Assembly (NCBI GenBank): GCA_013297655.1
Contig: JAAFHV010000026.1
Location: forward strand, 1-56,376
Direction of reading: 5' to 3'
DNA: 56,376 nt
Source: Myxococcales bacterium
GTDB taxonomy: Bacteria; Myxococcota_A; Polyangia; Polyangiales; Polyangiaceae
Each line of letters opens with the position of its first letter. Positions within the stretch are counted from its first letter, which is position 1. The position numbers and the translations under genes are program-made. Of this stretch, positions 43,727 through 47,967 are shown piece after piece. The notes beneath the pieces are model-generated. The model made no database searches. It saw only the letters and a list, made by a program, of their open reading frames with translations, and was not told the DNA's origin.

Positions 43727-46558
43727 TCAGCGCTTGCGAGACATCGGGCCGAGGTCCGCGCCGACGACCCGCATCCGCTGAAGCAGCTTCGAGAGCTCGA
43801 CCACCGGCACGATGGACACCGAGAGCGCGACGAGCACGCCCCAGTGCACGAGGGGCATTCCGTACGTTTGAAAGACGGTCCGCAGCGCTGGGACGACGAC
43901 GGCGACGAGGTGGATCGCGCCGCTCGCGAGCACCGCGAGCACGAGGGGCCTCGACCAGGCGGGGCGCAGGCTCACGATCGATCGGGTCGCCGAGCGGCAC
44001 GAGAACGCGTGAAAAAGCGGGGAAAGCGCGAGCAAGGAGAACGCGATCGCGCGGCCGTAGGCGACCCTGTCGACACCGGCCGAGACCTCCCACGGCCACA
44101 CGTAGCAGCCGATCCCGATCGCCCCCATGACAAGCCCCACGATCCCGATCCCGAGGTACTCGCGCCCTCCGAGGAGGCCGTCGGACGTCTTGCGCGGCGG
44201 CTCCATCATCTGCGACGCGTCCGGAGGATCGATCCCGAGGGCCAGCGCCGGGAGCCCGTTCGTCACGAGGTTGATCCACAGGATCATGATCGGACGGAAC
44301 GGCGGCAGGCTCGGGACGAGCGACGTGCCGAGCACCGCGACGACGAGGCCGGCGTTCGACGACAACAAAAAGAAGATGAATTTCTGAATGTTACGCCAGA
44401 TCGCGCGCCCCTCGCGGACCGCGTGCACGATGGTCGCGAAGTTGTCGTCGGCGAGCACCATGTCGGCCGCCGCGCGGGCGACGTCGGTGCCGTTTTTTCC
44501 CATCGCGATCCCGATGTGCGCCTCGCGCAACGCGGGGGCGTCGTTCACGCCGTCCCCCGTCATCGCGACGACGTGACCGCGCGCCTTGAAGGCCTTCACG
44601 ATGCGGAGCTTCTGCTCGGCGGTCACGCGCGCGAAGACACGCGTCGCGTCGATGCGCGCCGCGAGGCCGGCGTCGTCGAGCGCGGCGAGCTCCGAGCCCG
44701 TGAGCGCGATCGCCCCCTCGTCCCAGATCCCGAGCTCGCGCGCGATCGCCACCGCGGTGAGCTTGTGATCCCCGGTGATCATGACGGCGCGGACCTGGGC
44801 CTCGGCGCACTCGCGGACCGCTTCTTTCACTCCGACGCGGGGCGGATCGATCATGCCCACGAGCCCGACGAAGCGCAGCCTTTGCTCGATGTCGACCCCG
44901 CCCTCCCCAGCGTCCGCGTCCGCGTCAGCGTCAGCGTCGTCGAGGCTCTTTCGTGTGATCTCGCGCCGCGCGACGGCGAGCACACGGAGGGCCTTCGCGC
45001 TCATGCGGTCGGCCTCGGCTTGAATCTCGGCGCGCGAGACCTCGGACAGCGGCACGATCCCGTCTTCGAGCTCCACGTGCACGCAGAGGGGGAGCAGCAC
45101 GTCGCAGCTCCCCTTGGTGTGGACGATCTCGCTCCCTTCGGCGTCGAGGGTGACCACCGTCATACGCTTACGATCGCTGTCGAAAGGGATCTCGCGGAGG
45201 AGCTTGTGGCTCGGCAAAATGGACTCCTTCGGGAGCCCGCCTTTCTCCGAGAGCGTGAGCAGCGCCCCCTCGGTCGGATCGCCGATCACTCGCCGCATGC
45301 CGTCGGCGTCGGCCTCGAGCTTGGCCGTGTTCGCGAGCGCGACGGACGCGAGCAGATGGCGAAGCGGCGCGTACTCGATGTCGGCGACGCTGGCGTCCTC
45401 GTTCCGGATCTCGCCATCCGCGGCGTAGCCCGTGCCCGTCACGTGATAGGCCCGGCCTCCACAAAAGACCTCGCGGACCGTCATCTCGTTTTGGGTGAGG
45501 GTGCCCGTCTTGTCGGTGCAAATCACCGTCGCGCTGCCGAGCGTCTCCACCGCGGCGAGCTTGCGCACGATGGCCCCTCGCCGCGACATACGCTGCATAC
45601 CGAGCGCCAACGTAATCGTCGTGATCGCAGGGAGGCCCTCCGGGATCGCGGCGACGGCGAGGCTCACCGAACCGAGCAACACCTGCTGCCAGGTCTCTTT
45701 TGCGAGGAAGAGGCCCCACACGAAGATCAACGCCGAGAGCGCGAGACAGCCCCACAGGATGCGCTTCCCGAAGGCATCGAGGCGCTCCTCGAGCGGCGTC
45801 TTCGCGTCCGTCGGCGCCGACATGAGCGTCGAGAGCTTGCCGAGCTCGGTCCGCGTCGCCGTCGCGACGACGAGCGCGCGCGCCTTCCCGCGGACGACCG
45901 AAGTGCCCACGAAGAGCATCGTCGCGCGGTCTCCGAGCGGCGCGTCCTCGGCGAGCTCGGCGCGTGCGTCCTTCGTCGCGGGCACCGACTCGCCGGTGAG
46001 CGCGGACTCTTCGACGGCGAGATCGACCGACTGGATGAGGCGCGCGTCGGCGGGGATCGCGTCGCCCGCTTCGAGCTCGATCACGTCGCCCTCGACGACC
46101 TCTCGCGCCTCGACGACACGAAGGTCGTCGTCGCGACGCACCCGCGCCGCGGGCGACTGCATCTTCTCGAGCGCGTCGAGGGCGGCCTCCGCGCGCCGCT
46201 CCTGCACGTAGCCGAGCACCGCGTTGAGCACGACGATGAGGATGATCGAGATAGCGTCGCCCCAGCGCGTGAGGAAGGAGTCGCTCGTGTTGCCGGCGCC
46301 GTTGATGACCGCGACCACACCGGCGACGACGAGCGTGCCGACGATGGGATTCGCGAACTGGCCGAGAAACTGCCGCAACGCGCTCGGCTTCGTGGCCTTC
46401 GGGAGCACGTTCTCGCCGAGGCGCTCGAGGCGCGCCTTGGCCTCGATCGAAGTGAGGCCCGCGCTCGGGCTCGTCGCGAAGCGCGCGAGCAACGCGTCCA
46501 CCGTGCCCGTGTGGAGCGCCTCGCCATCGGCCCTATTTTTCGCGGTCGTCGGGGTCAC
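43727..46558 (-). CDS. P2-type cation-transporting ATPase
   Basis: A 943-residue P-type ATPase of the calcium-pump branch. Landmarks: TGES in the actuator domain, phosphorylation site ICTDKTGTLTQNEM, GDGVNDAPAL hinge, M4 motif AIPEGLPAITT, M5 LSSNAGLVVAV and M6 LWINLVTNGLPALALG. Against SERCA, Glu771 (M5) is Leu and Asp800 (M6) is Asn, while Asn768 is kept, so ion binding differs from a two-site Ca pump; Mn or another cation is possible. The start is GTG 46558. It is the fourth gene after the Cys-rich peptide, sigma factor and Cys-rich membrane protein, 87 bases after the latter, all on one strand. Confidence 0.92.
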   Translation of the reverse strand: MTPTTAKNRADGEALHTGTVDALLARFATSPSAGLTSIEAKARLERLGENVLPKATKPSALRQFLGQFANPIVGTLVVAGVVAVINGAGNTSDSFLTRWGDAISIILIVVLNAVLGYVQERRAEAALDALEKMQSPAARVRRDDDLRVVEAREVVEGDVIELEAGDAIPADARLIQSVDLAVEESALTGESVPATKDARAELAEDAPLGDRATMLFVGTSVVRGKARALVVATATRTELGKLSTLMSAPTDAKTPLEERLDAFGKRILWGCLALSALIFVWGLFLAKETWQQVLLGSVSLAVAAIPEGLPAITTITLALGMQRMSRRGAIVRKLAAVETLGSATVICTDKTGTLTQNEMTVREVFCGGRAYHVTGTGYAADGEIRNEDASVADIEYAPLRHLLASVALANTAKLEADADGMRRVIGDPTEGALLTLSEKGGLPKESILPSHKLLREIPFDSDRKRMTVVTLDAEGSEIVHTKGSCDVLLPLCVHVELEDGIVPLSEVSRAEIQAEADRMSAKALRVLAVARREITRKSLDDADADADADAGEGGVDIEQRLRFVGLVGMIDPPRVGVKEAVRECAEAQVRAVMITGDHKLTAVAIARELGIWDEGAIALTGSELAALDDAGLAARIDATRVFARVTAEQKLRIVKAFKARGHVVAMTGDGVNDAPALREAHIGIAMGKNGTDVARAAADMVLADDNFATIVHAVREGRAIWRNIQKFIFFLLSSNAGLVVAVLGTSLVPSLPPFRPIMILWINLVTNGLPALALGIDPPDASQMMEPPRKTSDGLLGGREYLGIGIVGLVMGAIGIGCYVWPWEVSAGVDRVAYGRAIAFSLLALSPLFHAFSCRSATRSIVSLRPAWSRPLVLAVLASGAIHLVAVVVPALRTVFQTYGMPLVHWGVLVALSVSIVPVVELSKLLQRMRVVGADLGPMSRKR

Positions 46559-46645
46559 GCGCTACGCATCATGCGCGCACGGGCTCCGATTTTGAACGAC
46601 CTCGTTCACGTCTCGCGGCTCGGGTGCAAAAGGTGCGCTCGTCAA

Positions 46646-47209
46646 TCACGCACGCGCACGGACGAGCGCGGCGCGGGCACCGGAGACCATCGCCGTCGCG
46701 ATCGCGACCCCGAGCAAGAGGCCCGCCGCTTCGCCGACGAAGAGCCCCGTGCAGCGCAACGCCGTGACGCCGAGGGTCCCCGCCGCGATCCCCGCGGGGC
46801 CTCCGAGATCCGCGCGACCGCGACCGCGCGGAGCCAAAAATGCCGCCACGAGCCCGATCGCCGCGCCCGCCGCGAAGCAGCACCCCGGCATCGTGCAGCA
46901 CGGCCCCACGATGGCTGCAGGATCCATGTTCGCGCAGCACGGGCGGAGCACGCTCATGGGCAAGATCCACGTGACGAGACCGAGCACGATGCCACGCCGC
47001 ACGCCCTGGCCGAGCGAGGTGCCACGCCACTCGGAAAAAAAGACGATCGCGAAGACGAGCGGTGCGACCACGGCCGACACCGGCCCGCGCACCACCACCG
47101 ACAGCCCCACCAGCGCCGCGGTCACGGCGAGCGCGCGAACGAGGGCGACCTGCCGTCGGCCCGATTCGTAGGCCAAAAGTGCCCTATTTTGAATATCGTC
47201 AGTGCTCAA
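46646..47209 (-). CDS. Cys-rich membrane protein linked to the sigma factor
   Basis: A 187-residue protein with about five hydrophobic spans (LVRALAVTAALVGLSVVV, VSAVVAPLVFAIVFF, GIVLGLVTWILPMSVL, AAGAAIGLVAAFLA, GLLLGVAIATAMV). The central extracytoplasmic or interface loop contains three Cys pairs (RPCCANMD, GPCCTMPG, CCFAAG). TTG 47209 was chosen: GGAGG lies at the right distance, and the gene overlaps the sigma stop by 11 bases. No anti-sigma zinc motif (HxxxCxxC) is seen, but a membrane partner encoded right after an ECF sigma factor is a common arrangement, so anti-sigma or metal-sensing roles are possible. Not a recognised family. Confidence 0.7.
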   Translation of the reverse strand: MSTDDIQNRALLAYESGRRQVALVRALAVTAALVGLSVVVRGPVSAVVAPLVFAIVFFSEWRGTSLGQGVRRGIVLGLVTWILPMSVLRPCCANMDPAAIVGPCCTMPGCCFAAGAAIGLVAAFLAPRGRGRADLGGPAGIAAGTLGVTALRCTGLFVGEAAGLLLGVAIATAMVSGARAALVRARA

Positions 47210-47762: not shown

Positions 47763-47763
47763 G

Positions 47764-47967
47764 TCATCCGCCGGGCTTCGCCTTCGCGGCTCCACCGTGC
47801 GCTTTGCAGCACGCGGCGCCCGGATGACAGCACGCAGCGCCGGGGTAACAGCACCCCTCCCCCTCCGATGCGCGCGCTCGGGCCTCGTATCCGACCCCCA
47901 ACGCGACGGCAGCGGCCGTCATCGCCGCGAGGACAAGACCTCGTCGTGCCTTCAAGTAACTCAGCAT
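47764..47967 (-). CDS. Small exported Cys-rich peptide (CCxPGAACC repeat)
   Basis: A 67-residue protein. A basic N-terminus and hydrophobic stretch (LVLAAMTAAAVALGVGY) form a signal peptide or anchor, with likely cleavage after ARA. The mature part is about 35 residues with six cysteines in three pairs: CCYPGAACC then HPGAACC, and it ends in a Gly/Ala/Lys-rich tail with one His. A metallothionein-like or thiol-redox role is a reasonable guess. ATG 47967 was preferred to TTG 47973: it lies nine bases after AAAGGAG. It begins the operon with the sigma factor. Confidence 0.75.
   Translation of the reverse strand: MLSYLKARRGLVLAAMTAAAVALGVGYEARARASEGEGCCYPGAACCHPGAACCKAHGGAAKAKPGG

Follow-up and report, generated by a model that had tools for sequence, protein, structure and literature searches.

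Our analysis of a 56,376-nucleotide stretch of a Polyangiaceae genome (Myxococcales bacterium; assembly GCA_013297655.1, contig JAAFHV010000026.1), hereafter the window, points to a metal-response system centered on an extracytoplasmic function (ECF) sigma factor, which is encoded between a small exported peptide with paired cysteines and a membrane protein with six predicted helices that also bears cysteines. Comparison with other genomes supports the three genes as a conserved unit in order, overlap and promoter. We think it likely that they constitute an autoregulated module responding to copper or a similar soft metal, in which the membrane protein would be the sensor and anti-sigma factor and the peptide a metal binder. 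The constituents, together with an adjacent gene discussed further below, are:

48018-47992, minus strand: ECF-type promoter GGTCAC-N17-CTAG, with the -35 element at 48018-48013 and the -10 element at 47995-47992
47967-47764, minus strand: gene for the exported Cys-pair peptide, an open reading frame (ORF) of 67 amino acids (aa)
47762-47199, minus strand: gene for the ECF sigma factor, an ORF of 187 aa
47209-46646, minus strand: gene for the six-helix Cys membrane protein, a putative anti-sigma factor or sensor, an ORF of 187 aa with a TTG start
46558-43727, minus strand: gene for a P2-type (calcium-pump-like) ATPase, an ORF of 943 aa, a neighbor without demonstrated membership in the module

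All four ORFs are present where the original prediction, made from the letters of the window, had placed them. It was also right about the tight coupling of the first three: a single base (47763) separates the peptide and ECF genes, and the ECF and membrane-protein genes overlap by 11 bases (47199-47209). A gap of 87 bases precedes the ATPase. This gene order and the overlap are more than chance, as both recur in other genomes. In a draw of 377 genomes from the phylum the membrane protein was recovered in 13, at 15 places, and at all 15 an ECF related to that of the window is encoded directly upstream of it; a separate draw of 59 genomes of the class contained seven with the membrane protein. 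A scan of named genomes returned 18 loci, the last few with weak E-values, from Myxococcales, Myxococcaceae, deltaproteobacterial metagenome-assembled genomes (MAGs), Labilithrix, Polyangiaceae, Archangium and one Steroidobacter MAG. Nothing was confirmed by a first contig scan with a single membrane protein as query, and the window ECF as query retrieved further, more distant copies. The 52 loci with an ECF match reduce to 43 non-redundant loci after removal of eight duplicates and one NrsF-type locus (L059); outside the 43 stand L030, with an ECF match and a module read by eye, and L074, taken up below. At 39 of the 43 loci the membrane-protein gene shares 4-14 bases with the end of the ECF gene, its starts having been chosen by a script that favors those near the ECF stop, and the encoded proteins have at least four cysteines in every one of them. 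An offset of -11 is the commonest among the relatives (15 of 43 loci), which supports the TTG start in the window.

The peptide consists of a hydrophobic N-terminal segment followed by three CC pairs in CCYPGAACCHPGAACC, giving the pattern CC-x5-CC-xPG-xx-CC. This pattern fits all 16 peptides located at the close loci, which is the fair count, an earlier tally of invariant cysteines over 18 peptides having been circular in that these were chosen by the very pattern. The original prediction had proposed a genome search for a conserved neighborhood of the peptide and the ECF, and such a neighborhood exists: a strict script, set to accept small exported Cys-rich ORFs that stop no more than about 260 bases from where the ECF begins, finds one in 29 of the 43 loci, as against 0/20 loci of NrsF-type ECFs and 3/671 random positions on loci of at least 9 kb. 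By eye, the peptide is further seen at L041, L042, L057 and L060, with a truncated copy at L021; script matches at L043, L053 and L078 are false and are excluded from the count. At distant loci the position is kept while the cysteine patterns differ, with versions such as CPCGTSCPCGSGCPCGH, FCGLCPF, CSCPICSH and a longer metallothionein-like tail. Codon differences among the 18 pattern-selected peptides fall mostly at position 3 (1105, against 673 at position 1 and 354 at position 2), and nonsynonymous differences (853) exceed synonymous ones (596), which indicates that the residues between the cysteines are not strongly constrained. Extra copies of the CC peptide occur at L196 (G400:C198) and L197 (G401:C51), where we found neither an adjacent ECF nor an exact promoter; hence, it is probably an independent gene product. 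Neither Pfam nor NCBIfam offers an accepted family for it. We also considered its modification by multinuclear nonheme iron-dependent oxidative (MNIO) enzymes and rejected it: all 16 genomes carry MNIO genes, but a 10-kb margin around the listed module peptides, some of them on short contigs, contains none, and the nearest on the same contig is about 21 kb away (G405 C5).

The promoter GGTCAC-N17-CTAG ends 24 bases before the ATG of the peptide gene. An autoregulated ECF operon would be expected to look like this. The exact form GTCAC-N17-CTAG, the best pair from an enumeration, lies no more than 110 bases from the peptide start at 13 of the 16 close loci and occurs once in the window, where 0.12 matches are expected. 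A looser motif (N16-17, CTA[GT]) turns up no farther than 330 bases from the ECF at 22 of the 43 loci, while the reversed pattern gives 0/43 and mononucleotide shuffles 5/860. The claim that the two Cys proteins and the ECF belong together is thus borne out by order, overlap and promoter across the relatives.

Exact copies of GGTCAC-N17-CTAG elsewhere suggest a candidate regulon. Five occurrences, that of the window included, are seen in the 9.9-Mb genome from which the window derives. One of these (C536:29109) opens an operon-like row coding for a heavy-metal-binding (HMBD) lipoprotein, an outer-membrane efflux protein and a multicopper oxidase, then for another ECF, which shares 57% identity with that of the window, and its membrane protein, and last for a small protein and a P1B ATPase of the copper type. 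Another precedes a gene for a 149-aa Cys protein related to the ECF-adjacent proteins of L052 and L053, and two have nothing convincing downstream. As a separate observation, a family of small Cys proteins with CC-x-F is encoded at the promoter site L109 (G000:C81) and beside the ECF in L052 and L053, in the latter two together with ACC-type hydrophobic segments. Fifteen further genomes add 49 exact sites, spread over 14 of the 15, so that the total comes to 54, or 52 after merging identical ones. A first gene could be assigned by rule to 45 of them, and 12 of these genes code for module peptides. Among the 33 others, seven belong by Pfam to families typical of copper handling: two multicopper oxidases, two cupredoxins, an outer-membrane efflux protein, an HMBD and an HMA protein. 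The control drew on 30 loci from the 235 reversed-pattern sites that the 16 genomes contain, and its 26 first genes include no copper-type family among the 25 of 29 matched families that were examined. At three sites (L148, G139:C96; L149, G139:C134; L150, G405:C5), near-identical and hence not independent, a Cys-rich lipoprotein-like ORF stands before an MNIO gene, MNIO enzymes being the hallmark of bufferin-like copper-binding ribosomally synthesized and post-translationally modified peptides (RiPPs); a second nearby site there precedes a multicopper oxidase. Within the 52 ECF loci themselves, a motif search found a multicopper oxidase or copper-type ATPase only at L025, L026 and L072, and L024 has ATPase-like tblastn matches. 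The soft-metal side of the proposed soft-metal or thiol sensing has held up as the best reading, because the module promoter also precedes genes for copper and heavy-metal proteins.

In the ECF, the sigma2 region is recognized by Pfam Sigma70_r2 (4.6e-7) and by TIGR02937 (43.7 bits; cut-off 42.9), with no Sigma70_r4 among the Pfam matches listed. Its structure model (predicted local distance difference test, pLDDT, 89) matches known ECF folds over sigma2 with Z up to 12.1, in an alignment (VIA-align) that covers mainly residues 1-128 and leaves sigma4 outside the comparison. An RKRxSRAYxxLR stretch aligns with sigma4 of the NrsF-linked ECFs and is preceded by a block seven residues shorter than theirs. 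Measured between two aligned positions, the sigma4 block has 27 residues in the window protein, 23-30 over 42 distinct window-type ECFs and 34 in 20/20 NrsF-linked ones, a shortening of 4-11 residues. The window ECF has an intact sigma2 and, judged from these alignments, a probably shortened sigma4 helix-turn-helix. In a midpoint-rooted tree the 42 window-type ECFs separate from the 20 NrsF-linked ones, with support of 1.0 for the NrsF-linked clade and 0.29 at the window-type node. The cysteines of the window ECF are two isolated ones (RCR, VCT), with none in the C-terminal part.

The membrane protein has CC pairs at residues 91-92, 104-105 and 110-111, and C153 before the last helix. Its AlphaFold2 model, of moderate confidence (pLDDT 75, predicted template modeling score 0.55), has six main helices, with the Cys cluster predicted between helices 3 and 4 and the other Cys between 5 and 6. 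Basic residues number three at the N-terminus, three in the 4-5 loop, two at the C-terminus and one in each of the other loops, and this distribution weakly favors an orientation with the N-terminus inside and the cysteines outside. A conserved RRAYExGR-like stretch near the N-terminus, with a loose pattern that fits 41/43 proteins, is likely the contact with the sigma factor. There is no accepted Pfam match for the 11 members searched and no NCBIfam match for the window protein. Membership in the NrsF family (PF06532) was considered and rejected after Pfam and profile-profile comparisons gave no match.

Hence, we propose the following scheme. At rest, the ECF would be kept at the inner membrane by the six-helix protein, whose conserved basic N-terminal helix probably makes the contact. 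By analogy with NrsF, occupation of the outward-facing Cys cluster by Cu(I) or a similar metal might then release the ECF, and the freed sigma factor would transcribe from GGTCAC-N17-CTAG, raising the expression of its own operon and turning on the distant copper-handling genes. The peptide, as the first product of that operon, would be exported to buffer the metal outside the cytoplasm and may also hand it to the membrane sensor. The gene order, the overlaps, the promoter and its positions ahead of copper genes are read directly from the sequence. In this scheme we infer four things: the use of the sites by the ECF, its restraint by the membrane protein, Cu(I) as the metal and the binding of metal by the peptide. 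The P2-type ATPase is a neighbor that read-through could reach and no conserved part of the scheme.

Several observations weigh against this scheme. The sites may be used by another factor than the window ECF, which is assigned to them from sequence. The looser promoter motif is missing, under the rule used, in 21 of the 43 loci, and the pattern is not enriched genome-wide, being outnumbered by its reversed control in 14 of the 16 genomes (the counts are equal in G341, and the pattern is the commoner form in G405). The excess of copper-type first genes over the control (Fisher p 0.014) comes from a small, post hoc test, 26 of the 33 non-module first genes belong to no copper family, and the motif search brought up no copper gene in the available flanks of most close loci. 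One Archangium membrane protein (L074) stands without an ECF. Nine of the 43 loci have no recognizable peptide, among them L044, L050, L055, L073 and L078. At the other four, to which the family searches of neighbors extended, the setting speaks for the scheme: L026 is situated in the copper operon described above, L043 follows a partial CusA/CzcA-type pump (Pfam ACR_tran over its cut-off; TIGR00914 at 277 bits, under its cut-off), and L052 and L053 lie beside ECC/ACC-type Cys proteins. As to the membrane protein, NrsF is not among the seven families matched by any of the 11 members at E up to 5, hhalign gives a probability of 1.1% against 28 NrsF-locus sequences that were chosen by rule and in many cases have a shortened N-terminus, and of 47 listed PDB matches to the model none has an E-value up to 0.001. 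This last result says little, since the model is only moderately confident. With no sequence relation to NrsF and no significant match to a solved structure, the anti-sigma role is assigned to the protein by its position.

The strongest of the competing explanations, which we regard as improbable yet deserving of some weight, retains the same architecture and changes the signal: the module would respond to thiol oxidation or to a soft metal such as Hg, Ag, Cd or Cr, with the copper genes forming part of a broader envelope-stress regulon. SigF is reported to respond to Cr and Cd (PMC3511200), the neighbors with ACC and ECC motifs in L052 and L053 recall mercury-type proteins by eye, with no Pfam match, and sites also precede genes for a CCP_MauG protein and an AhpC/TSA-like protein. 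Nevertheless, the recognizable targets are mostly of copper types, namely the multicopper oxidase, cupredoxin, HMA, HMBD, copper ATPase and MNIO cluster. A less probable option makes the membrane protein a metal carrier or transporter and leaves the ECF under some other control. Paired cysteines in a small multi-helix protein recall MerT-type carriers, and both the lack of a sequence relation to NrsF and the copy without an ECF at L074 would fit such a role; it sits poorly with the tight coupling to the ECF seen in the 39/43 overlaps, with the conserved basic N-terminal stretch and with the general tendency, as reported in PMC8103513, of anti-sigma genes to adjoin the gene of their ECF.

The third alternative is the four-gene reading of the original prediction, in which the peptide and membrane protein act as soft-metal sensors and the adjacent P-type ATPase exports the metal; we hold it to be very unlikely. 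The ATPase gene is on the same strand after a gap of only 87 bases, and no terminator-like site was found on the strand of the module in 46300-48400, so that read-through from the module could reach it. However, while Pfam recovers P2-type cation-ATPase domains in the product, its best NCBIfam scores are with calcium-type P2A models (TIGR01522 at 643 bits, cut-off 798; another at 632), both under cut-off, and it falls far below the cut-offs of the P1B models for copper (TIGR01511, 154 bits vs 397) and heavy metals (TIGR01525, 230 vs 346). Moreover, a P2 ATPase adjoins the module in the window alone, that is in 1/52 loci (duplicates included, many with flanks of about 1.7 kb), and no second exact GTCAC-N17-CTAG site exists anywhere in the window. 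The system-linked copper ATPase of this genome is instead encoded at the paralogous locus, and for this reason, along with the lack of a conserved adjacency, we leave the P2-type enzyme out of the system. It was rejected as a fourth member on its family and on the missing conservation, and the role of effector once proposed for it is not supported. Least probable of all is a role for the peptide as a secreted antibacterial or structural product, the ECF serving competition or envelope structure with copper genes near the sites by chance, for while the peptide is small, exported, variable outside its Cys motif and present in two genomes as extra copies away from any ECF that we found, peptides of different Cys spacing occupy the same position in distant members and copper genes follow the sites in several genomes versus none seen among the 26 control genes.

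Other genes around the module were noted in passing. Directly upstream on the same strand is a PspA/IM30 gene (49115-48276, minus), followed further out by one for a CesT_Tir_1 family protein, resembling type III chaperones (49739-49221, minus), which lies beside a Ser/Thr kinase gene (49950-50978, plus). After the ATPase comes a 684-aa lipoprotein-like ORF (43605-41551, minus) with a sub-threshold FG-GAP match only.

If the copper-responsive module is as we propose, the myxobacteria would gain a second copper sigma system beside CorE, one with a putative sensor that lacks an accepted Pfam match (11 members) or NCBIfam match (window protein), and its readable promoter would let the regulon be listed from sequence. 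It would also imply a family of tiny exported Cys peptides whose members likely bind copper with none of the MNIO chemistry seen in bufferins, and the shortened sigma4 would offer a useful case for how ECFs read the -35 element. Going further, we tentatively raise the idea of an undescribed class of metal-ECF circuits, in which the first-encoded exported metallopeptide would be a receptor that presents the metal to a Cys-cluster membrane anti-sigma factor; across Myxococcota the Cys motifs of the peptide would have diversified while its position, its partner and the GTCAC/CTA-type promoter were kept and sigma4 was shortened clade-wide.

The original prediction knew of no named system with this composition, and our literature searches likewise found no published one among the publications listed; its ECF may fall in an already numbered ECF group. 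The ECF named for copper in a 2023 review of copper signaling is CorE (PMC10141476). CorE and CorE2 of Myxococcus xanthus (ECF238/ECF44; copper and Cd/Zn sigma factors) resemble the present system in their linked genes for a multicopper oxidase, a copper ATPase, outer-membrane efflux and heavy-metal-domain proteins (PMC3107203). However, CorE is described as sensing copper through its own Cys-rich C-terminal domain and a CxC motif in the linker (PMC8999054), both of which the window ECF lacks; the latter has a membrane partner, and CorE sites were sought using an AAC -35 core (PMC3107203). Like the bufferins with their MNIO enzymes, the module has an exported Cys peptide of the Sec type with a link to copper (PMC12452194), and its promoter precedes a Cys-rich ORF with an MNIO gene at the three near-identical sites; it differs in the Cys pattern of its peptide and in having no MNIO gene within 10 kb of it in the 16 genomes, some on short contigs.

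The closest parallel is the SigF/NrsF system of Caulobacter, in which NrsF, a protein with six transmembrane segments and two periplasmic cysteines, is reported to restrain SigF. Among the SigF targets are DUF2282 peptides and DUF692 proteins (PMC3511200), products now described as bufferins and MNIO enzymes, respectively (PMC12452194). In both systems, an ECF gene is followed by one for a multi-helix membrane protein; NrsF has six segments, a short N-terminal tail and cysteines that face outward (PMC3511200), and the module protein would have a similar layout. SigF has exported Cys peptides among its targets and responds to heavy metals (PMC3511200, PMC12452194), as the ECF of the proposed module would. 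The differences lie in the membrane proteins, which have no detectable sequence relation, in the ECFs, those of the module being separate on the tree and shorter in sigma4, in the promoters (GGTCAC-N17-CTAG in the module vs GTAACC-N16-CGAA for SigF), and in the peptide, which in the module is encoded inside the ECF operon and lacks a neighboring MNIO gene. In its proposed logic, the module comes close to the SigF/NrsF/bufferin circuit (PMC3511200, PMC12452194) without being recognizably NrsF or CorE.

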